Shown piece after piece: positions 2,916 to 16,826 of a stretch of 64,000 nt of DNA. Under the pieces are notes generated by a model. It did not search any database and was not told the origin of the DNA. It was given only the letters and a program-made list of their open reading frames with translations. The DNA is from Synechococcus sp. CC9902. GTDB taxonomy: Bacteria > Cyanobacteriota > Cyanobacteriia > PCC-6307 > Cyanobiaceae. The DNA lies in the NCBI RefSeq assembly GCF_000012505.1, contig NC_007513.1, forward strand, positions 1,550,001 to 1,614,000, in the 5' to 3' direction. Position numbers and translations under genes: made by a program. Position 1 is the first letter of the stretch; every line of letters starts with the position of its first letter.

Positions 2916-4052
2916 CTAGAGGAGCGCTCCCCGCTGACAGCCCATCAACCGCCCAGACCAAGCCTCGGCATAGGCGCGGTTGGCAGCTTGTTGATCAGCA
3001 TCGGTGGTATCGAGCGCATGGGGCATCGTTCCAGCAATCGCCCCGTTGGTGACACAGAACATCGACTTCTGGAAACTGACGCAGATTTGAACATGCACAT
3101 CAACTTGGCCACGGCCGTGATCGTCGTACCAACGACCGAGTTCCTCCGGCAGATGCCGGAACATATCTTTCATGCAGAGACTGGGGGGAATACCAGCTCC
3201 CATGCTGGGAATCGGATCGGCGTATAGAGCGCCGTACTTGAAATCACTGATGTCTGGTGAAATCTGACGTGCCTGGGCGTTGTAAGACACGGTGCCGAGG
3301 AACGGCATACCCCTAAAAAACACCGCTTCCACGTAAGGAACAGCGACATCCACCAAAAATGTGAGACCAGCTTCCGGGGGCAACACCCAGATTTTTTCTC
3401 CCGCCACATCCACCCCGTAGGTGATTGGGTTAGCGGCAGCAGCAACAAGCCCATCACGGATGTGATGCACCACATCGTTGACACAGGTGACTTCCTTGAT
3501 CGCATAGCGACGAGCCAAATCAACGAAAAGATCACTCATCACACGCCAGAACAAGCCCAAGCAATAGATCGTGGTGAGAGAACGAATCGACTCCGGAGCA
3601 AACCCTGGATACAACTTGTTGGTGAGGGCCAGCAAAGGATCGCGCTGGGCTTTTCGCTGGATGATCCTCTGGCAAACATCCTGAAAAGGCTCACTATCGA
3701 GATAGGCATCAAGGCCCCCAGTGCCATGCCAGAACATCGCTTTTTGACAATATTCGGCGTACTCGAAATTAATCCGATCACCGAGAAGGTGATCCCAGAG
3801 CCGCTTTGGCGTTAACCCCTCGTGGAAAAAACGAAAAATGGGGAAAGGATTGAGCAACTGCTTCTCTCCTTGATCCACCAAGTTTTTGCTGTAAGCATCA
3901 AGAACGATTCCATAGGTCTCCAACACATTCACCACCTGAACGAGATGGTCTTGCGTATCCGCCAACAACGGGGAGTCAGACAACAGGCGCTGAATTAATT
4001 CCTCTTGATCGGGGAGAACAGGCGCTGTGATTGGTTTCACTGTTGTGGTCAT
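2916..4052 (-). CDS. chpX: CO2 hydration protein ChpX (CupB type)
   Basis: A 378-residue soluble-looking protein of the ChpX/ChpY (CupA/CupB) family, which occurs only with specialised NDH-1 complexes. It is thought to convert CO2 to bicarbonate inside the cell, using energy from the NDH-1MS complex on the thylakoid or plasma membrane. The sequence is rich in conserved His and Cys, and has family-like stretches such as FWHGTGGLDAYL and GTMPHALDTTDAD. The start ATG overlaps the ndhD4 stop in an ATGA arrangement (4 bases), and ndhF4-ndhD4-chpX is the typical order. The adjacent partners point to the constitutive NDH-I4 form, so I call it ChpX rather than ChpY. Confidence 0.92.
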   Translation of the reverse strand: MTTTVKPITAPVLPDQEELIQRLLSDSPLLADTQDHLVQVVNVLETYGIVLDAYSKNLVDQGEKQLLNPFPIFRFFHEGLTPKRLWDHLLGDRINFEYAEYCQKAMFWHGTGGLDAYLDSEPFQDVCQRIIQRKAQRDPLLALTNKLYPGFAPESIRSLTTIYCLGLFWRVMSDLFVDLARRYAIKEVTCVNDVVHHIRDGLVAAAANPITYGVDVAGEKIWVLPPEAGLTFLVDVAVPYVEAVFFRGMPFLGTVSYNAQARQISPDISDFKYGALYADPIPSMGAGIPPSLCMKDMFRHLPEELGRWYDDHGRGQVDVHVQICVSFQKSMFCVTNGAIAGTMPHALDTTDADQQAANRAYAEAWSGRLMGCQRGALL

Positions 4053-5563
4053 GACAATCCTCCGCTGAGTTGACTCAATCCGGTTGTGGCGGCCTCGCTG
4101 AGGTTGGAGAGCAGCTCAGGAGCCAAACCAAGGGCCAGAACACCAAGGCTCAAGGCAATCGCTGGCACCTGCTCGCGCAGGGAAACCCGATCCAGAACGC
4201 GCGGATTGGCGACTTCGCCTGGAGCAATGGCCAAACGCCCAAAGAATGCGCGGTTCACCAACAACAGAAAATAAACAGCGGTTAAGCCAGATCCCACCAT
4301 CGAGAGCAGGGTGGCAACAGGGAACGGTTGCAAACTGCCCCGGAAAATCAGGAATTCTGAGATAAAACCAGCCATACCAGGAATACCCGCACTCGCCATC
4401 ACGCCAATGATCATGAGGGATCCCGTCAGCGGCAGGCCCCGTTCGGGGTTGAGGAGGCCCCGCAAAACATTGAGATCCCTCGTGCCCGTCCGGGCGTAAA
4501 CCACACCCACCAAGAGAAACAACACGCCTGAAATCAAGCCATGACTAATCATCTGGAACAGCGCCCCCATCAATCCCAGGGGAGTCGCCGCTGCTGCTGC
4601 CAATAGGACGTATCCCATGTGGCCAACGGAGCTGTAAGCCACCATCCGTTTCATATCTGTTTGGGCAATGGCCGCCAGCGAGCCATACAGCACTGAAATG
4701 GCGGCCCAAGCAGCCAGCCAAGGGGCTGCCAACTGCCAAGCCTCTGGGAATAAACCCAAGCAAAAACGCAGCAGACCGTACGTTCCCAACTTCAACAGAA
4801 CACCAGCCAAAAGCACGGAAACTGGTGTTGATGCCTCCGTGTGGGCATCGGGTAGCCAGGTGTGGAACGGGAACAGCGGAATTTTGATGCCGAAACCAAT
4901 CAGCAGAGCTCCCATCAGCAAGAACTGAGCTTTCAATCCCAATTCACCGCTCAGGATTGGCCTCAGGCTGAAATCCATCGTTCCGGTGACGAAGGCAAGC
5001 CCCAGGAACGCGCCAAGAATCAACATTCCCGACACAGCCGTAACGATCAAAAACTTTGTTGCGGCATAGGAGCGATTCGCCCCTCCCCAAACAGCAATTA
5101 AGAGCCACAGCGGAATCAGCTCTAATTCATAGAAGAGGAAAAAGAGAAGCAGGTTTTGAGAGAGAAACGCTCCATTCACCGCACCACTGATCACCAGCAG
5201 GAGGGCGAAATAAATCCTCGGACGGTTGTCGATGGATCGGGACGCCACTGCTGCCACCAAACACAGCACGGCATTCATCAGCACCAGTGGCAGCGACAAA
5301 CCATCCACTGCCAAGGCGTAATCAAGGCCAATGGAATGCACCCAGCGAGCCTGCTCGACCAGTTGCAGGGCTGCATCGGTGGGGTCGAAAGGAAGCAACA
5401 GGGCAAAACTGGCAACGCATTGCACCACCAAAATCACAATCGCGCCGATCCGAATCCGCTCACTGCTTTGGGTCGTTGGCCAAAGCAGTAAACCGAGAGC
5501 CCCAGAGAACGGGATCAGAAGTAGGAGCGAGAGCAACATCAGATCAACTAAGTGAGGAACCAA
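4049..5563 (-). CDS. ndhD4: NDH-1 subunit D4 (CO2-uptake type)
   Basis: A 504-residue, very hydrophobic protein of the NuoM/NdhD proton-pumping family, with about 14 membrane helices. Recognisable family features are the FFLFYELELIPLWLLIAVWG region (helix 5 glutamate), FHTWLPDAHTEA (conserved lysine/histidine helix) and the DMKRMVAYSSVGHMG helix. Together with NdhF4 and ChpX it would form the membrane arm of the CO2-uptake NDH-1 complex. The first codon overlaps ndhF4 by 16 bases; the ATG eight codons later (5539) is also possible. The stop overlaps chpX by 4 bases, so the three genes are very probably co-translated. Confidence 0.94.
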   Translation of the reverse strand: MVPHLVDLMLLSLLLLIPFSGALGLLLWPTTQSSERIRIGAIVILVVQCVASFALLLPFDPTDAALQLVEQARWVHSIGLDYALAVDGLSLPLVLMNAVLCLVAAVASRSIDNRPRIYFALLLVISGAVNGAFLSQNLLLFFLFYELELIPLWLLIAVWGGANRSYAATKFLIVTAVSGMLILGAFLGLAFVTGTMDFSLRPILSGELGLKAQFLLMGALLIGFGIKIPLFPFHTWLPDAHTEASTPVSVLLAGVLLKLGTYGLLRFCLGLFPEAWQLAAPWLAAWAAISVLYGSLAAIAQTDMKRMVAYSSVGHMGYVLLAAAAATPLGLMGALFQMISHGLISGVLFLLVGVVYARTGTRDLNVLRGLLNPERGLPLTGSLMIIGVMASAGIPGMAGFISEFLIFRGSLQPFPVATLLSMVGSGLTAVYFLLLVNRAFFGRLAIAPGEVANPRVLDRVSLREQVPAIALSLGVLALGLAPELLSNLSEAATTGLSQLSGGLS

Positions 5564-7453: not shown

Positions 7454-7509
7454 AGGCCAATTGGGGGCCTCTGGTTGAACCACTTTCATCGGCGATTTGT
7501 GGTTTCAAC
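7454..7509 (-). terminator. Two hairpins after csoS1E, terminator-like
   Basis: Read on the minus strand, AACCAC (7499-7504) pairs with GTGGTT (7478-7483) just after the csoS1E stop. A second hairpin follows, with AGGCC and GGCCT arms (7466-7470 and 7454-7458) and directly after it TTTT. This resembles a weak intrinsic terminator that could reduce transcription from the carboxysome genes into ndhF4. Stems are short, so read-through is likely. Confidence 0.4.
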
Positions 7510-8029
7510 TGCGACGGATCGCTCCTGTGCCAACGAGAGCTGGCTCAACACCATCATTGGGGCGGGCAATGATGTGGGCAGCCACGAGGCCATCGCCGAC
7601 ACGCTCGCAGGCGTCGGCACCGGCACGCACTGCAGCGTTCACTGCACCGGTCTCACCACGCACCATCACCGTCACATATCCACCACCGACATATTCACGG
7701 CAAACCAAGCTCACTTCCGCAGCTTTGGTCATTGCATCAGCGGCTTCAATCGCTGGAACCATGCCGCGAGTTTCAATCATGCCAAGGGCAACTCCACCGA
7801 CACGGGCGTTCGAGCCTGCACCGGATGGGGCCAAGCCACCACCCCTCGGAGGCGTTTTTGCTATTGATTTCGAGGCAGGGCTCGACGACTTCTGAGCGGC
7901 CTGAGCGGTCTTCCCCTTGTCAGTCGCGCCTGCGCTTGCTGCAGCCGTGGTCGCAGCAACCGGCTTCACATCAACTGTCTTGTTAGCAGCAGTACTGCGA
8001 CGACGCGGTGTGGAGGAAGGAGTAGCCAT
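7505..8029 (-). CDS. csoS1E: Carboxysome shell protein CsoS1E (BMC-H with long N-terminus)
   Basis: A 174-residue protein with a C-terminal BMC-H shell domain nearly identical to CsoS1 (GMIETRG, VGGGYVTV, GETGAVNAAVRAGADAC, VGDGLVAAHIIARP). The first 75 or so residues are low-complexity, rich in Ala, Ser, Thr, Lys and Pro, and probably disordered. CsoS1E is found in a subset of alpha-cyanobacteria and is expected to sit in hexamers in the shell, with its tail reaching into or out of the particle. I start at ATG 8029; the frame is open further upstream, but that part does not look coding. It follows csoS4B by about 50 bases. Confidence 0.9.
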   Translation of the reverse strand: MATPSSTPRRRSTAANKTVDVKPVAATTAAASAGATDKGKTAQAAQKSSSPASKSIAKTPPRGGGLAPSGAGSNARVGGVALGMIETRGMVPAIEAADAMTKAAEVSLVCREYVGGGYVTVMVRGETGAVNAAVRAGADACERVGDGLVAAHIIARPNDGVEPALVGTGAIRRS

Positions 8030-8081
8030 AGCTGGTAAAAATTGGATGCAGAACGGAGGCGGAGGAGAGGAGGGACAATCC

Positions 8082-8333
8082 CTATCCGTCCGGCGTCCAG
8101 TGATCGATGATCCCGCCGATGGTGAGATCGGTAAGCACGGTGTTATCTGGGCAGGCATGCCGCGCAGCCGAACCGCTAGCGGTGAAAACCCAGTTGCCCT
8201 TTCTGGCGCCTACAGGATCAACAGCAACCAGTTTCTTGCCCTTGTTATTCACAAGAATGCGCAAATGCATGTGATCCAAACCGGCAACGCGGAAGGTGCA
8301 GATCAACGTGTCGGATACCTGCATGATCTCCAT
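8082..8333 (-). CDS. csoS4B: Carboxysome vertex protein CsoS4B
   Basis: An 83-residue BMC-P (CcmL/EutN-type) protein. The pentamer-forming signature is visible as DHMHLRILV, KLVAVDPVGARKGNWVF and the C-terminal DLTIGGIIDHWTP. CsoS4 pentamers cap the twelve vertices of the alpha-carboxysome icosahedron. The start ATG shares one base with the csoS4A stop (TGATG), so the two vertex genes are translationally coupled. The ATG three codons later is an alternative start. Confidence 0.95.
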   Translation of the reverse strand: MEIMQVSDTLICTFRVAGLDHMHLRILVNNKGKKLVAVDPVGARKGNWVFTASGSAARHACPDNTVLTDLTIGGIIDHWTPDG

Positions 8334-8649: not shown

Positions 8650-10398
8650 TCAGTGAGCCTCCTGAATCTGGGGGTCGAGCGTTGAGCCGATAATCTCGGC
8701 CGTTGTTGCTTGATGCCGGTCACGAACGGTCAAGCACGTGTGCAGCAAACCGTCTTTGACCAAATCGGAATAACGATCTGCGATGGCTTGATTCACGCGC
8801 CAACAATCGGCAATGGCGCGATCGCGAGCACCGGGAACACGCCCCGAATAATCGAAGCGAACCAGCACAGGGATCGGTAAATCTCGAGACACATTGAGTC
8901 CTCGAAAAATTTTGACGCCCACATCGAGATCAGGGGCTCCTTCCTCGACGGTGTCGAGGTGGGCGAAATAGGTGAGATTTCGAAGATGCACTTCTTTAAA
9001 ACCAATGCCCACACCAATAAAACGCTCGGCATGTCCGGCATCGGGATAGGGCGCTCCATGCAGATCCTGCACGTAATCAATCTGTGAGCAGTTGTTGGCC
9101 AATAAACGGGTCATGAACGTAACCATGCCGGGCTCCATCGGACCTGGAGCAGCAGATTCCAAAGCCTCGGCCAACTGGGCCATCGCCTGATCCGGAGACA
9201 TCCCAGCGGTTGCGTCATGGAGCTCGCGAGCACAAACCCACTGATCAAGAACCATTTCGCTGTCGCGATTCGGTGGATGAACGCGAATCGCATCGGTATC
9301 GGTATCAAGGCCGATCAGGAGGAGATCAACGGAGGCACCACAACAAAAGCTGTTTTCAACGGCTTCTCGAAAATCCAAGAGGCGCTGTAGACCGGCCGAT
9401 GCCGCCAATGCATCGTTGCTGCTGTGGGCTGCGCAGCCTTGATGATGGGGATCAAGAGAGCTGAAGTGATACGTGACCACCTTCAGATAGCGAGTTGGTT
9501 CCGTGGATGGATTGGGCTTGCCCTCTCGATGACGGCGATGTTCTGTTTTCACCCAGCGGTTCACCGTGTTCTCTACGTCGAACATCGCTCCAGCGTGAGA
9601 GCGGCGGCGTACAGCGCTAAACGGAATCCGCAACGCATAGGCCACGGTGTGAGCCAAGCGGCCATCGGAACAGGGCGTCACATCCAAAAGATGGATGCCG
9701 CAATCGAGCAAAAACTGTTCAAATTCTTGGGCAGCAGCACTCCCCTCAGCGCCCTGCAACGGGTCGTCCTGAAAAAAGCGATCACTAAACAAGCGGTGGC
9801 TTTCAAACACACACCAGGCAAATAAGCCGCGCATGTCGAGGGGACGCACCCATGCCCGTTCCAGGATGTGGCTAGGCAAATCAAATCCCAGCTCAGCCCG
9901 ACTCAAGCGCTGTGCTTGGACCAGGAAGTCGGACTCATGCTGGAGAGCAGAGACCTGCTGGAGCAGGGGAACAATGCGATCAAAGCGACCCTTCACATCC
10001 AGCTCATACGAACGAAGACGTTCGTTCGCAACCTGATTGGTGAGGGGGTGTTGACGAGAATTGAGAGGCAGGGAGGAACGACTGAGGTTGAACGGCACCG
10101 AGCGCGATGGTGCCTGATCCCGTCTCACCCATCCCGGTTGCTGGGGCGTCGGACGACGCTTGTCGCGTCCAGTGCGAGTACGGCCAGCCCCAAGGGAACC
10201 TTGCACCACAACCGCAGCTTTACCAGCCGTCGTCAAAGCACGGCGTCGTTCGAGGGCGACACTGCGAGCTGAACCGGTTGAACTGTTCGAGGCCGGGGAG
10301 CGATCCGTTTGATCGGAACGCTCTTGCTGCAACTGACGTCGACTCGGAGCCGTGGGGGCCTGAGCTCGCCCGCTGCGGGAAGGCATAGAGCGAACCAT
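8650..10398 (-). CDS. csoSCA: Carboxysomal carbonic anhydrase CsoSCA
   Basis: A 582-residue carbonic anhydrase that turns bicarbonate into CO2 inside the carboxysome. The active site is readable: Cys243, Asp245 and Arg247 (motif CSDGR), His311 and Cys322. The His-Cys spacing of eleven matches the Zn ligands of the Halothiobacillus enzyme. Three parts follow the known layout: N-terminal helical region, catalytic beta-CA-like domain, and a C-terminal pseudo-domain with stretches such as HAERFIGVGIGFKEVHL. The first ~100 residues are Arg/Gln/Ser-rich and disordered, and contain VALERRRALTTAGK (residues 47-60), very similar to a CsoS2 N-repeat, so this tail probably docks on Rubisco. It lies seven bases below csoS2. 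Confidence 0.96.
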   Translation of the reverse strand: MVRSMPSRSGRAQAPTAPSRRQLQQERSDQTDRSPASNSSTGSARSVALERRRALTTAGKAAVVVQGSLGAGRTRTGRDKRRPTPQQPGWVRRDQAPSRSVPFNLSRSSLPLNSRQHPLTNQVANERLRSYELDVKGRFDRIVPLLQQVSALQHESDFLVQAQRLSRAELGFDLPSHILERAWVRPLDMRGLFAWCVFESHRLFSDRFFQDDPLQGAEGSAAAQEFEQFLLDCGIHLLDVTPCSDGRLAHTVAYALRIPFSAVRRRSHAGAMFDVENTVNRWVKTEHRRHREGKPNPSTEPTRYLKVVTYHFSSLDPHHQGCAAHSSNDALAASAGLQRLLDFREAVENSFCCGASVDLLLIGLDTDTDAIRVHPPNRDSEMVLDQWVCARELHDATAGMSPDQAMAQLAEALESAAPGPMEPGMVTFMTRLLANNCSQIDYVQDLHGAPYPDAGHAERFIGVGIGFKEVHLRNLTYFAHLDTVEEGAPDLDVGVKIFRGLNVSRDLPIPVLVRFDYSGRVPGARDRAIADCWRVNQAIADRYSDLVKDGLLHTCLTVRDRHQATTAEIIGSTLDPQIQEAH

Positions 10399-10405
10399 CA
10401 GCAGA

Positions 10406-12745
10406 TCAGCCCCTGGCTCCGCCGGAAAGGGTGATCAAAGAGCCTTTGTCGGTGCTGCCACTGGAGCCCGTCACACGACTCATCGGCCACTCGATTTCCT
10501 CATTCCGCTTGTTGTCCTTAGGCGCCATGGCACTCATGGGACCAGGACGGGTGGGGTTGCGGCGACGGGCCGAAACGCCTTCTGTACCGGTGACGTGCTC
10601 TCCACGATCCCAGTCATCACCAGTCACTTTGGTGGACGAGCCTTCACCAGTTACCCGGGACACAGGCTTGGCAGGTTCTTTGTCGGCCTGGGGAGACATA
10701 ACCGTGGGTTGAAACTGGCGGGTTTGTTGCTGACGGGTTTGGAACTCACGGTTGTCAAAGCGAAATTGCTCTGTACCGGTCACTTTTCCGCCAGCCAGGT
10801 CAAAAGGGCCAGTAATCCGTTGGCCGTCCTCATAAGACGTACCGGTGACAGAAGACGTTGCATCCTTCTGCTGTTGAGCGGCCCGAGCGGGTGACACCAC
10901 GCTGAAGCTTGTCCATGGAGATCCGCTTTCAGGCTGTCCATGACTATCGGCTCCAGCCGGAGCATCGGCTCCGCATGCCGCGGCCAGCTGATCACCACCG
11001 ATGTACGGCGTACCAGAAATCACTTCGCAAGCACCGCGCTCTGCACCCGTCATCACACCACCGATTCCGGGCTGAAGCCCAGTCATGGGAGCCGCTGGCG
11101 TACCAGGACGAGACGGCGTGCGTTCACGAATCGCTTGAACCGCAGGGGTGCCGCAGTACTGACCGGCTTGCTCAAGACCTGCGTAGGGGGTTCCCGTCAC
11201 GGCTTTGCACGTGCCGGGTTCGTCCCCAGTGACGCGCTCCGAACGGCCGGTTTGGGTTCCACTCACCACCAGATTGCGGTTGGTGACGCTGAAGCCCACT
11301 TTGGAAGCTTGTGCTTCTGGTTTGGCACCACAGAACGTAGAGAACTGTTCAGAACTCAAGTACTGATTGCCAGTGACGCGGTGGCAAGACCCGAACTCAT
11401 CACCGGTGACTGCCGATGAACGGCCGACAAGAGTGCCAGTAACACCAGTTCCAGAGAGAGTTTCAGACAAACCAACCTTGGTGGCTGGGCGTCCTTCAGG
11501 CAAAGGATCAGATCCAAGATATTGATCACCCGTCAGGCTGCGGTTTGCACCGGCCTCATTGCCCGTGACATTGGAAGACTGGCCGACCATGACGCCACTA
11601 ATGCGTCTGCCCTGTTGGCTTTGGCTATGTCCAACCTTGCGAGGGGAAGGAGTCGAACCGCCGCAATAGGCAGCGGATTGATTCGCCGAGATGTATTCGG
11701 TACCGGTCACGTTCTTACAGGTACCGGGCTCATCGCCCGTCACTTTCTCGGAGCGACCCACTTCATTACCGGTGACCCGGTTGCCATGGGTTGTGGCAGA
11801 GACACGAACCTTCGCTGGTGTTGTCTTTTCAGGTGCGGATTGACAGAAGGTTTGGAAGACTTCAGCACCGAGGTACTCAGTACCAGTGATCGAACGGCAA
11901 GTGCTGGCTTCGTTCCCGGTGGTCTTCACCGAGCGATTGGCTTGGGTACCGGTGACAACTTGTCCAGCGGAAGTCTCACTTTCACCCACTTTCCAATGGG
12001 CATCGGCAGCCTGCTTGGCGCCATGACGATTGGGGCCAGATGGACGCGTGATCCCGGCGCTTTGTTTCGTACGAGAACCAGACTTGGCACGCAGTTCACG
12101 AACCTGTTGCGCGAGTTCACGGCTGGTGAGGTCTGGATTGGCCTGGCGGGCCACTGCTGCAGCACTCGTGGGCTGTTTGCCAGCGGTTTTTCCATGCTTC
12201 GACATGGCATCACGACGCGCCAAAACCAAAGCGCGACTGGGATTTTCAATCGCACGACGCTTTGGAGTGGCTTGGCGCCTCTCGCTGGAGCGTCCACTCA
12301 ACTGAACGGTGGCCGCAGCACGGGATGGAGCTGCAGATGACTCAGTGGCTGCTGCTGAAGCAACAACTACTGAAGCAACAACTGGAGTCTGACGAGCGAC
12401 GTCGGCACGATTCCGATCACTGGTCTTGTCGGCGGTTTTCCCTCGACGTGAAAGTGCTTCTCGACGGGCAAGCACCAATTCACGACTGGGTTGGCTTACC
12501 GGCTTAACCCGGGAACGCGGAGCTGACGATGCGGTCAATGTCTGCGGGCGTCGCGGAGCTACAGCGACGGCAGGTGTCGACACTTCAACAGCGGCATCCG
12601 ATGCATTGGCATTGGTGCGAGTTGAACGGGCATCGGCCGCTATGCGAACACGACCCGAACCGGAGGCAACCGAAGCCTTCTTCCCGGAGGTAGTGAGGGC
12701 CTTACGGCGCTCAAGTGCTAATTCGCGACTGGAAAGTCTGGCCAT
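10406..12745 (-). CDS. csoS2: Carboxysome scaffold protein CsoS2
   Basis: A 779-residue intrinsically disordered scaffold that binds Rubisco through its N-region and shell through its M- and C-regions. Four N-repeats with the pattern SRELxLxRRxAxxxxGK begin near residues 5, 86, 168 and 206 (the fourth is degenerate). Six M-repeats, each with several I/VTG motifs, run at about 252-302, 312-362, 370-418, 423-473, 482-532 and 553-592. Most carry a Cys after the second VTG and a Cys at the end; the third lacks both. The C-region ends with the conserved peptide GSLITLSGGARG. I noticed no homopolymer slippery site, so I expect a single long form. A hairpin precedes the gene. Confidence 0.96.
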   Translation of the reverse strand: MARLSSRELALERRKALTTSGKKASVASGSGRVRIAADARSTRTNANASDAAVEVSTPAVAVAPRRPQTLTASSAPRSRVKPVSQPSRELVLARREALSRRGKTADKTSDRNRADVARQTPVVASVVVASAAATESSAAPSRAAATVQLSGRSSERRQATPKRRAIENPSRALVLARRDAMSKHGKTAGKQPTSAAAVARQANPDLTSRELAQQVRELRAKSGSRTKQSAGITRPSGPNRHGAKQAADAHWKVGESETSAGQVVTGTQANRSVKTTGNEASTCRSITGTEYLGAEVFQTFCQSAPEKTTPAKVRVSATTHGNRVTGNEVGRSEKVTGDEPGTCKNVTGTEYISANQSAAYCGGSTPSPRKVGHSQSQQGRRISGVMVGQSSNVTGNEAGANRSLTGDQYLGSDPLPEGRPATKVGLSETLSGTGVTGTLVGRSSAVTGDEFGSCHRVTGNQYLSSEQFSTFCGAKPEAQASKVGFSVTNRNLVVSGTQTGRSERVTGDEPGTCKAVTGTPYAGLEQAGQYCGTPAVQAIRERTPSRPGTPAAPMTGLQPGIGGVMTGAERGACEVISGTPYIGGDQLAAACGADAPAGADSHGQPESGSPWTSFSVVSPARAAQQQKDATSSVTGTSYEDGQRITGPFDLAGGKVTGTEQFRFDNREFQTRQQQTRQFQPTVMSPQADKEPAKPVSRVTGEGSSTKVTGDDWDRGEHVTGTEGVSARRRNPTRPGPMSAMAPKDNKRNEEIEWPMSRVTGSSGSTDKGSLITLSGGARG

Positions 12746-13310: not shown

Positions 13311-14723
13311 TCACTGGACGTCGAGCTTGTCGACGGTGTCGAACTCGAACTTGATCTCCTTCCAGGTCTCGAGAGCGATGGCCAGCTCGGGGCTGTGCTT
13401 GCCGGCTTCCATAAGGATGTCGCGGCTTTCTTTCTCGATCTCGCGACCGGCGTTACGTGCCTTGACGCAGGCCTCAAGGGCAACGCGGTTAGCAGCAGCA
13501 CCAGCTGCGGAGCCCCAGGGGTGACCGTGGGTACCACCACCGAACTGCAGGACGGAATCGTCTCCGAAGATCGCCACCAGTGCGGGCATGTGCCACACGT
13601 GGATACCACCGGAAGCAACGGCGAACACACCGGGCATGGAACCCCAGTCCTGATCGAAGAAGTTGCCGCGGCTGCGGTCTTCAGGAACGAAGGATTCACG
13701 CAGTTGGTCGATGTAGCCGAGGGTGGTCTGACGATCACCCTCCAACTTGCCGACCACGGTGCCGGTGTGAAGCTGGTCACCACCGGAGAGACGCAGGCAC
13801 TTCGCGAGAACGCGGAAGTGAATGCCGTGCTTGGGATGACGGTCAATCACAGCGTGCATGGCACGGTGAATGTGCAGCAGCATGCCGTTCGCACGACACC
13901 ACTTCGACAGACCGGTGTTGGCGGTAAAGCCACCGGTGATGAAGTCGTGCATGATGATCGGCTGATTGAGTTCTTTAGCGAACTCAGCGCGCTCATACAT
14001 CTCTTCGGGAGTGTTGGCGGTCACGTTGAGGTAGTGACCCTTGCGCTCACCGGTCTCCTGTTCGGCCAGCTTGATGGCTTCCGCAACGAATTCGAAGCGG
14101 TTCTGCCAACGCTGGAACGGCTGGGAGTTGATGTTCTCGTCGTCCTTGGTGAAGTCCAGACCGCCACGCAGGCACTCATAGACAACACGGCCATAGTTCT
14201 TGCCGCTCAAGCCAAGTTTTGGCTTGATGGTGCAACCCAACAGTGGACGGCCGTACTTGTTCATACGGTCACGCTCAACGGCAATGCCGTTTGGTGGGCC
14301 TGCGCAGCACTTGATGAATGCAATCGGGAAGCGAATGTCTTCCAGACGCAGGTGGCGCAAAGCTTTGAAGCCGAACACGTTGCCGACCAATGAGGTCAGA
14401 ACGTTGGTGATCGAACCCTCTTCGAACAGGTCGAGGGGGTAAGCGATGAAGGCATAGAACGCCTCCTTGTCACCAGGAACGTCTTCGATGCGATAGCAAC
14501 GGCCCTTGTAGAAGTCGAGGTCGGTGAGGAGCTCGGACCACACAGTGGACCAGGTGCCGGTTGAGGATTCAGCAGCCACAGCAGCGGCAACTTCTTCCTT
14601 GGGAACACCTTCTTGGCCGGTGCACTTGAAGCAGGCCAGGAGGTCGGTGTCTAGGGGAACGTAATCAGGAGTCCAGTAAGTGTCCCTGTACTCCTTGACC
14701 CCAGCGTCGTACTTCTTGCTCAT
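13311..14723 (-). CDS. rbcL: Rubisco large subunit, Form IA
   Basis: A 470-residue large subunit that carboxylates ribulose 1,5-bisphosphate in the Calvin cycle. Catalytic landmarks are Lys167 (TIKPK), the carbamylated Lys193 with Asp195 and Glu196 (FTKDDEN), His286 (HIHRAMH) and loop-6 Lys326 (GTVVGKLEG). Overall sequence and gene order identify the green-type Form IA of alpha-cyanobacteria and proteobacteria. The C-terminus ends DKLDVQ, without the extended tail typical of red-type Form IC/ID enzymes that CbbX pulls on. It follows csoS1 by about 70 bases. Confidence 0.98.
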
Positions 14724-14792: not shown

Positions 14793-15104
14793 TCAGTCCT
14801 TTTGACCAAGGAAATTGCCATTGCCCAATGCAGGCTCCACTTCGCGGTGGGGGCGAGCAATGATGTGAGCAGCAACCAGGCCGTCGCCCACACGCTCGCA
14901 AGCATCTGCACCTGCACGCACTGCAGCGTTAACAGCGCCGGTTTCACCGCGGACCAAAACGGTCACATAACCACCGCCGACGAACTCACGACCAATAAGA
15001 CGCACTTCGGCGGCTTTGGTCATCGCATCAGCGGCTTCAATTGCGGGAACCAGGCCGCGAGTCTCGATCATGCCGAGAGCGATACCCATGGTTTCGTTAG
15101 CCAT
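14793..15104 (-). CDS. csoS1: Major carboxysome shell protein CsoS1 (BMC-H)
   Basis: A 103-residue single-domain BMC protein whose hexamers tile the shell facets. It shows the full BMC-H core: GIALGMIETRGLVPAI, VGGGYVTVLVRGETGAV and GDGLVAAHIIARP. It is the first gene of the minus-strand carboxysome run, so transcription for at least the cso-rbc part probably starts in the gap upstream. The closest paralogue in the window is csoS1E, which shares the core but has a long extra N-terminus. Confidence 0.97.
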   Translation of the reverse strand: MANETMGIALGMIETRGLVPAIEAADAMTKAAEVRLIGREFVGGGYVTVLVRGETGAVNAAVRAGADACERVGDGLVAAHIIARPHREVEPALGNGNFLGQKD

Positions 15105-16037: not shown

Positions 16038-16826
16038 TCAGCGATATGACGCGTTGCGGTTGACCATCTCAATAGCCCGCATGGCAGCAGCGGCCGCTTC
16101 CTCCACATCACCCTCACGACCAGCCAGGGTCAATCGCCCAAAGGCACCCACAGCCTTCACATCCACAAGAGTGATGTTCGATGATTTTTCAGCCTCGTTG
16201 GCTGCGATCAGCACGTAACCGGCAGGCTCTGTTTCGAGAATGAACATGCTCATGCCCGCCTCAATCATCGATCCGCGGCGGTTCTGACGATTGATCAAAA
16301 CAGCGTGATCAGGCGTGATCGCACGGATCACCTCAGTCCAGCTCACCTCAGCCGGATTGCGCTGGGCAATCGTGCTGCCGATGGCTTCCAGAACCACATC
16401 CCCGGAATGCAGCACCGTGCTCTGATCACGGTGATAAAGGGCCATCGAGCCGAAAGCCCGTTCCACCACCATTTGGCCAAGCCGAACATTGCTGGCCTTC
16501 AGCGCAATATCAGTAACGCGGTGCACAGCCATCCCTGGTGACACCTCCATCCACAGGCACGCATCTCCGGGGATGGGAAGAAATCCCTGACTCACCGTTC
16601 CCATGTAGGCCGCCAGTTGCGGCTGAAGCGAGTCGATAAAAACGTAGGTGCGCAGCTCAATCGACTGAACCTGGCTGTTTTGGCGCAACAACCGTGGGGA
16701 TTCCGAGTCGGTTGTGACGACGCAGCTGGCTCCACTAGCAGAGGCTTTCTGCACCTCTGTTCCAGTAACGAGCGAGCTACCACCAAGCCGCCGCTCCCGT
16801 TCCTCGAAGCTGGCGAATCGGGTCAT
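16038..16826 (-). CDS. csoS1D: Tandem-BMC carboxysome shell protein CsoS1D
   Basis: A 262-residue protein with two fused BMC domains (about 55-150 and 155-256). CsoS1D forms pseudohexameric trimers that stack and have a large gated pore, probably for RuBP and PGA. The gating pair Glu122-Arg123 ([10 protein letters not shown]) is present, two positions later than in the Prochlorococcus protein. The N-terminal ~50 residues are flexible and include SSLVTGTEV (residues 17-25), very like the VTG motifs of CsoS2. It is transcribed apart from the main operon, with rdgB between them, which would allow its level to be set separately. Confidence 0.93.

Follow-up and report, generated by a model that had tools for sequence, protein, structure and literature searches.

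The scaffold protein CsoS2 of the alpha-carboxysome contacts the shell by means of short [IV]TG motifs, which touch His79 of the shell protein CsoS1A (PMC10484944; PMC13159521) and are described as binding the strand that bears this residue via main-chain hydrogen bonds (PMC10484944). Exchange of the VTG units in the M-region for AAA is reported to weaken shell binding, to prevent condensates in standard buffer and to cause a dramatic loss of growth in air (PMC11365436). The M-repeats carry further distinguishing marks, namely triplets placed 8 residues apart, a tyrosine, a lysine and a cysteine pair (PMC11365436). For the pore protein CsoS1D, shell entry and position are called unclear (PMC12918739; PMC11606499; PMC10689251). 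The preliminary description of the locus treated here had known of no other scaffold contacts of CsoS1D; such contacts are on record, since CsoS1D is reported to have bound CsoS2 peptides and to have formed complexes with CsoS2 and CsoS1 (PMC4499774). As given in the same report, the eluate of GST-CsoS2 contained no CsoS1 on the stained gel, and CsoS1 was seen by Western blot with CsoS1D co-expressed, so that these pull-downs agree with a bridging role of CsoS1D. In the 8-mer array of that report, the M-region of CsoS2 gave contacts for Rubisco only and not for CsoS1, despite its VTG units (PMC4499774). Very limited co-evolution with other shell proteins is stated for CsoS1D of Cyanobium (PMC10689251), and CsoS1D of H. 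neapolitanus was detected in recombinant shells (PMC11606499).

Two other described systems bear a likeness to the case presented below. The encapsulation peptides of bacterial microcompartments (BMC) are also short terminal peptides that attach a protein to the shell, but they are amphipathic helices on cargo (PMC8217296), whereas CsoS1D is a shell protein with a putative extended VTG strand. In a handful of Prochlorococcus, the Rubisco-binding pattern of CsoS2 is found in CsoSCA (PMC10614612), where a short CsoS2 motif again lies in the disordered N-terminus of another carboxysome protein. That motif belongs to the type of the CsoS2 N-region and targets Rubisco, whereas the motif of CsoS1D belongs to the type of the M- and C-regions and would target the shell.

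The csoS1D gene and its surroundings

The window, which is the whole stretch of DNA analysed, comprises 64,000 nucleotides of Synechococcus sp. CC9902. It contains a csoS1D gene that adjoins the cso locus, in which CsoS1, CsoS2 and CsoSCA were recognised by family matches and the Rubisco large subunit by eye. The following genes are considered:

16038..16826, minus strand: csoS1D, 262 aa, ATG start; tandem-BMC gated pore protein (BMC-T, permuted, double-stacking type)
14793..15104, minus strand: csoS1, major shell hexamer (NCBIfam BMC_CsoS1, 6.1e-56); presumed docking partner
13311-14723, minus strand: Rubisco large subunit, ORF read by eye
10406..12745, minus strand: csoS2, scaffold compared for VTG motifs (NCBIfam NF050159, E 0; Pfam CsoS2_M, 8.2e-215)
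8650-10398, minus strand: csoSCA, named by family match
7505-8158, minus strand: single-BMC gene with a long N-terminal part, probably csoS1E, the name that we presume for this ORF

With its tandem permuted BMC fold and its neighbours in the cso locus, the window protein is a CsoS1D. The Pfam BMC domain is found in the ORF at 1.7e-9, and the solved chain 7dhq_A, which we take to be CsoS1D of H. neapolitanus, matches by sequence with an E value of 1.5e-85. In the CsoS1 of the window, His80 sits in VAAHIIA and is taken here as the equivalent of His79 of H. neapolitanus CsoS1A. The best match in the PDB by sequence comparison is the CsoS1D chain 3f56_A (E 1.9e-127), which comes from Prochlorococcus MED4 (PMC5853799). 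CsoS1D was present in 361 of the 392 genomes searched of the family and in all 40 genera; the phage collection searched contained no match to it.

The VTG block and its similarity to CsoS2

Ahead of the BMC fold, CsoS1D has an N-terminal tail in which two blocks can be distinguished:

16662..16826, minus strand: N-terminal tail, residues 1-55, ahead of the BMC fold; fast-evolving outside the two blocks
16752..16778, minus strand: VTG block, residues 17-25, SSLVTGTEV; T21 and G22 invariant in 117 aligned sequences
16761..16769, minus strand: VTG triplet, codons 20-22; [VIL]TG in 149/149 distinct tails
16701..16733, minus strand: second tail block, residues 32-42, GASCxVTTDSE, with one cysteine (C35); T38, T39 and D40 invariant in the 117 sequences

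The preliminary description had given residues 17-25 as SSLVTGTEV and had likened them to the VTG units of CsoS2; the translation of the 262-aa ORF confirms the former, and the latter is borne out by a nine-column matrix built from 333 unique [VIL][TS]G contexts of 31 CsoS2 proteins. Among the 19,038 9-mers from 62 greedily chosen ORFs of the window, with CsoS2 left out, SLVTGTEVQ took rank 2, behind a segment of an NADH-dehydrogenase-type membrane subunit (4049-5563). Shuffled tails scored at least as high as the CsoS1D site in 72 of 20,000 cases, so that chance is disfavoured, not excluded, from the window sequence alone. The similarity includes the residues after the triplet, where T (+3) and E (+4) are the commonest letters in CsoS2 and V (+5) is the second commonest. 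The chain 3f56_A reads GSSLVTGSEVQ at the matching position. The tail in the window has a CsoS2-type [VI][TS]G triplet with CsoS2-like flanks, and this element is conserved.

What the tail has in common with CsoS2 is the triplet with its flanking T-E-V; the repeat as such is absent. In the M-repeats and the C-region of CsoS2, the motifs likewise read [VI]TG, often followed by T-E or D-E, and in both proteins they lie in the same compartment and in a putatively disordered chain. However, the CsoS1D tail has one triplet per chain instead of triplets at 8-residue spacing, has no tyrosine and no lysine, and contains one cysteine instead of two; moreover, its VTG is carried by a shell protein, whereas that of CsoS2 is carried by the scaffold. 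A single copy of the triplet per chain was counted in 147 of the 149 distinct tails. A full M-repeat was rejected for the tail, as a 20-residue M-repeat profile finds CsoS2 and not CsoS1D in the genome of the window with E values up to 10. In 12 other genomes, none of the matches listed for this profile fell at the place of CsoS1D, which is known in 11 of the 12. A 20-column HMM scored 91 of the 149 tails higher than the 99th percentile of the shuffles (5,995 reported of 7,450 made). In this test, the VTG block and the remaining tail are not distinguished, and in a further test the best matches fell on the VTG block itself. An independent rise of such a three-residue motif and its borrowing from CsoS2 are equally possible as its origin.

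Conservation within the alpha-cyanobacteria

Tails could be read at 189 of 193 loci; the stretches preceding the fold, taken to a length of at most 60 aa, comprised 149 distinct sequences. The tails cover 31 of the 40 genera with a match, one of them (g39) read by hand; the divergent genera were sampled by hand-picking, and one tail search used the best 80 of 454 matching stretches. Conservation in close homologues was one of two points on which the preliminary description had let its proposal depend, and the comparison did not refute it: the triplet is the most widely kept feature of a fast-changing tail. All 189 readable loci have [VIL]TG, and so do all 149 distinct tails, with 91 VTG, 51 ITG and 7 LTG. 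When only [VI]TG is counted, 142 of the 149 tails contain it, compared with about 7.9 expected from shuffles. After thinning at 60% identity, the 26 representatives all retained [VIL]TG, where 2.1 would be expected; together with the 149/149 tails, this excludes chance across the relatives. In all 149 tails, a candidate start codon (ATG, GTG or TTG) lies in frame with the triplet, either upstream of it or at the triplet itself; in 131 of them it is an ATG.

Outside the script reading, loci L026 and L036 have VTGTEV, and the sequence of L153 is cut before the tail. Locus L152 contains ITGTE, but a stop lies in frame a few codons before it; either a short tail or an imperfect sequence may account for this.

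For the comparison of single positions, 117 sequences of one length class were aligned; they represent 137 of the 189 loci, those with the triplet 33-37 residues ahead of the fold and an ATG 12-24 residues ahead of the triplet, minus identical DNA. The selection required the triplet, and no locus was lost for lacking it (189/189). In this alignment, T21 and G22 are invariant with all four codons in use for each, residue 20 is V or I in 117/117, and E24 and V25 are conserved in 112 and 115 of the sequences, respectively. Free variation is seen at tail positions such as 14, 26 and 27.

A second conserved block

The preliminary view of the tail was correct for the VTG block and missed a second, more constrained block at residues 32-42. 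The pN/pS values, which were taken from 521 close, overlapping sequence pairs and are descriptive only, describe a mosaic: 0.341 for the N-terminal part (residues 2-18), 0.192 for residues 19-25 and 0.146 for residues 20-25 of the VTG block, 0.571 for the spacer (26-31), 0.054 for block 2 (32-42), which is near the 0.047 of the BMC fold, and 0.161 for the linker (43-55). The core of block 2, [VI][TA]TDx[ED], is present in 139 of the 149 tails, and the longer form with cysteine, C-x(1,2)-[VI][TA]TDx[ED], in 120. The 10 tails that lack the block belong to genera g46, g57, g58 and g59, in which CsoS1D is more divergent and LTG or ITG is nevertheless kept, making the VTG-type triplet the most widely kept element of the tail.

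The cysteine C35 is conserved in 95 of the 117 aligned sequences. It lies mostly 11 residues from the VTG, and up to 29 in other genera, compared with 5 residues in CsoS2. In locus L076 and 18 similar Prochlorococcus loci (L082-L110), GASC is swapped for letters of the DDPKR type, with [VI]TG and VITTDSE kept, so the tail cysteine is dispensable there. Block 2 weakly resembles the CsoS2 sequence GTCxxVTGTEY, with p<0.05 in 93 of 110 segments and p<0.01 in 24, but the segments are homologous copies of one block and these counts are therefore not independent.

Structural data on the tail are in line with disorder. For chain A of the MED4 structure 3F56, the structural table gives 207 residues (PMC5853799), whereas the chain sequence has 281; the listed number is about the length of the fold alone and, with the fast evolution of the tail, fits a disordered segment. 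An AlphaFold model of CsoS1D from 32 sequences had a mean pLDDT of 38.1 and was discarded.

Relatives without a tail

Within the sample taken, only the alpha-cyanobacterial CsoS1D has the tail. The two proteobacterial CsoS1D compared, from Thiodictyon syntrophicum and Nitrobacter hamburgensis, have the same fold with 66-70% identity over the matched part, but they start one or two codons before it and have no N-terminal tail; no VTG was found in the 40 in-frame codons upstream, which hold stops. In both species, the cso genes with this tailless CsoS1D lie on plasmids (L230, L231). In the solved chain 7dhq, no more than 18 residues precede the fold. CcmP shares the tandem-BMC fold, with roughly 40-50% identity to CsoS1D over the matched part, and has neither a tail nor an upstream VTG: in the CcmP-type loci from other cyanobacterial families, a candidate start lies at most 4 residues before the fold in 20/20, and [VIL]TG occurs upstream of the fold in 0/20. 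As a further control, the disordered N-termini of 20 CsoSCA proteins, found among 30 CsoS2-containing loci of the same family as the window, contained no [VIL]TG (0/20).

A possible role in shell docking

We consider it the best explanation, with a probability of roughly 60%, that CsoS1D is docked onto the CsoS1 hexamers next to it by lumenal [VI]TG tails, three per trimer. The flexible N-terminal tail would carry a CsoS2-type [VI]TG shell-docking peptide and would emerge from the shell-embedded trimer on the convex side, which faces the lumen, as is expected from the circular permutation of the BMC domains. Each of the three tails could then pair, as a short extra strand, with the edge strand that bears His79 in a neighbouring CsoS1 hexamer, in the manner of the CsoS2 VTG units and next to the sites used by CsoS2. 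Three tethered VTGs per trimer would keep the rare pore within the lattice of hexamers, in register with its neighbours, and the GASCxVTTDSE block is probably a second contact. The original suggestion, that a borrowed VTG peptide tethers the gated pore to CsoS1 hexamers, is partly supported by these data and plausible, with the binding itself being what we infer.

The published topology favours the lumen side for the N-terminus of CsoS1D. Shell proteins are described as turning their concave face to the cytosol and their convex face to the lumen (PMC10902431), and in a redesign of PduA, circular permutation places the termini on the convex side (PMC6109187). The latter report words the termini of PduU ambiguously, as 'on opposing faces', and refers to a native orientation that is still debated (PMC6109187). 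A caveat arises from the class to which CsoS1D belongs, BMC-Tdp, in which the concave faces of two trimers meet (PMC8217296). In such a stack, the tails of the outer trimer would extend towards the cytosol and would find no CsoS1 partner there.

Further points bear on the strength of the proposed contact. Since the 8-mer array gave no M-region contacts for CsoS1, a lone VTG is probably weak, and the avidity of three tails would be needed. As a counterpoint to docking, the tyrosine that matters in the M-repeats is absent from the CsoS1D tail, and the M-repeat profile does not pick up CsoS1D. The very limited co-evolution of Cyanobium CsoS1D with other shell proteins (PMC10689251) likewise speaks against it. 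Moreover, the occurrence of H. neapolitanus CsoS1D in shells and the at most 18 pre-fold residues of 7dhq indicate that a long tail is not required everywhere. A more far-reaching form of the proposal is doubtful: the tail might act as a miniature scaffold, in which the VTG and the cysteine block dock the pore at CsoS2 sites, competition with CsoS2 sets the number and position of the pores, genus g44 adds a CsoS2-N-like Rubisco peptide that would connect pore, shell and enzyme, and the proteobacteria are tailless.

An alternative, which we regard as unlikely, is that the tail acts chiefly on CsoS2, beside the M-repeats or in competition with them at the hexamer junctions, where its cysteine may pair with CsoS2 and the scaffold places CsoS1D. 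The binding of CsoS1D to CsoS2 peptides and the CsoS1-CsoS1D-CsoS2 complexes (PMC4499774) agree with this, as do the cysteine pairs of the M-repeats (PMC11365436) and the conservation of C35; however, the contacts in the array map to the N- and C-regions of CsoS2 and not to M (PMC4499774), and the Prochlorococcus group with DDPKR-type letters in place of GASC keeps its VTG and dispenses with the cysteine.

Still less probable is that the tail is kept for an unrelated reason, such as processing, modification or stability, and that its likeness to the CsoS2 VTG is a coincidence. Three residues are few, shuffled tails can score as well and a membrane protein of the window scores higher, but the match extends to T-E-V, the variation at the first position (V, I, rarely L) is the same as in CsoS2, and the triplet occurs in a protein of the same compartment as CsoS2.

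The least probable reading is a gate or plug, with VTG and GASCxVTTDSE folded back on their own or the stacked trimer so as to control the 14 A pore. Although the tail leads directly into the first strand of domain 1, the constraint on block 2 is close to that on the fold, and residue 61 (16644-16646), matched by eye to His79 of CsoS1, is a Y in 87 of the 117 sequences and an H in the other 30, tailless relatives such as CcmP have a gated pore (PMC5853799), the 207 residues listed for the MED4 crystal chain suggest that the tail was apparently not seen plugging the pore (PMC5853799), and the CsoS2 identity of the conserved triplet is left unexplained. With residue 61 at a His79-like position, CsoS1D itself might accept a VTG peptide.

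As regards the preferred reading, docking onto CsoS1 hexamers, no published description of a VTG motif in the CsoS1D tail was found in the journal literature searched; an earlier mention is possible, and the first impression that the motif may be undescribed has held within that literature. What appears to be new is that the shell-docking triplet of CsoS2 is found on a second protein, for which a docking role is predicted from sequence. The conserved VTG suggests how the rare CsoS1D pore may be held in the shell, and a peptide of three residues makes its shell entry directly testable. If the proposal is true, the shell code of CsoS2 extends to a second protein, engineers could tag alpha-carboxysome shells on their lumen face with a minimal peptide, and results obtained with CsoS1D of H. 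neapolitanus, which apparently has no long tail, may not transfer to the main carbon fixers of the ocean.

Rubisco-type motifs in CsoS1D tails and CsoSCA

The N-repeat of CsoS2, the Rubisco-binding pattern RxxxxxRRxxxxxxGK, was also compared with the tails and was rejected for the window tail (p 0.3). A likeness at p<0.01 was obtained for 5 of 124 tails, three of them in genus g44, and is clear in g44 only. The g44 tails L104, L158, L161, L165 and L169 carry SR[DE]ELAL[RS]RRRE ahead of the VTG, which resembles the N-repeat with p 0.003-0.013 against shuffles. L104 and L158 are apparently the same gene, from Synechococcus sp. CS-1331, and L104, L158 and L161 have a second VTG further upstream in the tail.

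In the window itself, residues 45-60 of CsoSCA (10219-10266, minus strand) read RSVALERRRALTTAGK, an exact fit to RxxxxxRRxxxxxxGK, and the NCBIfam model of CsoS2 also matches CsoSCA, at residues 41-96 with 4.2e-5.
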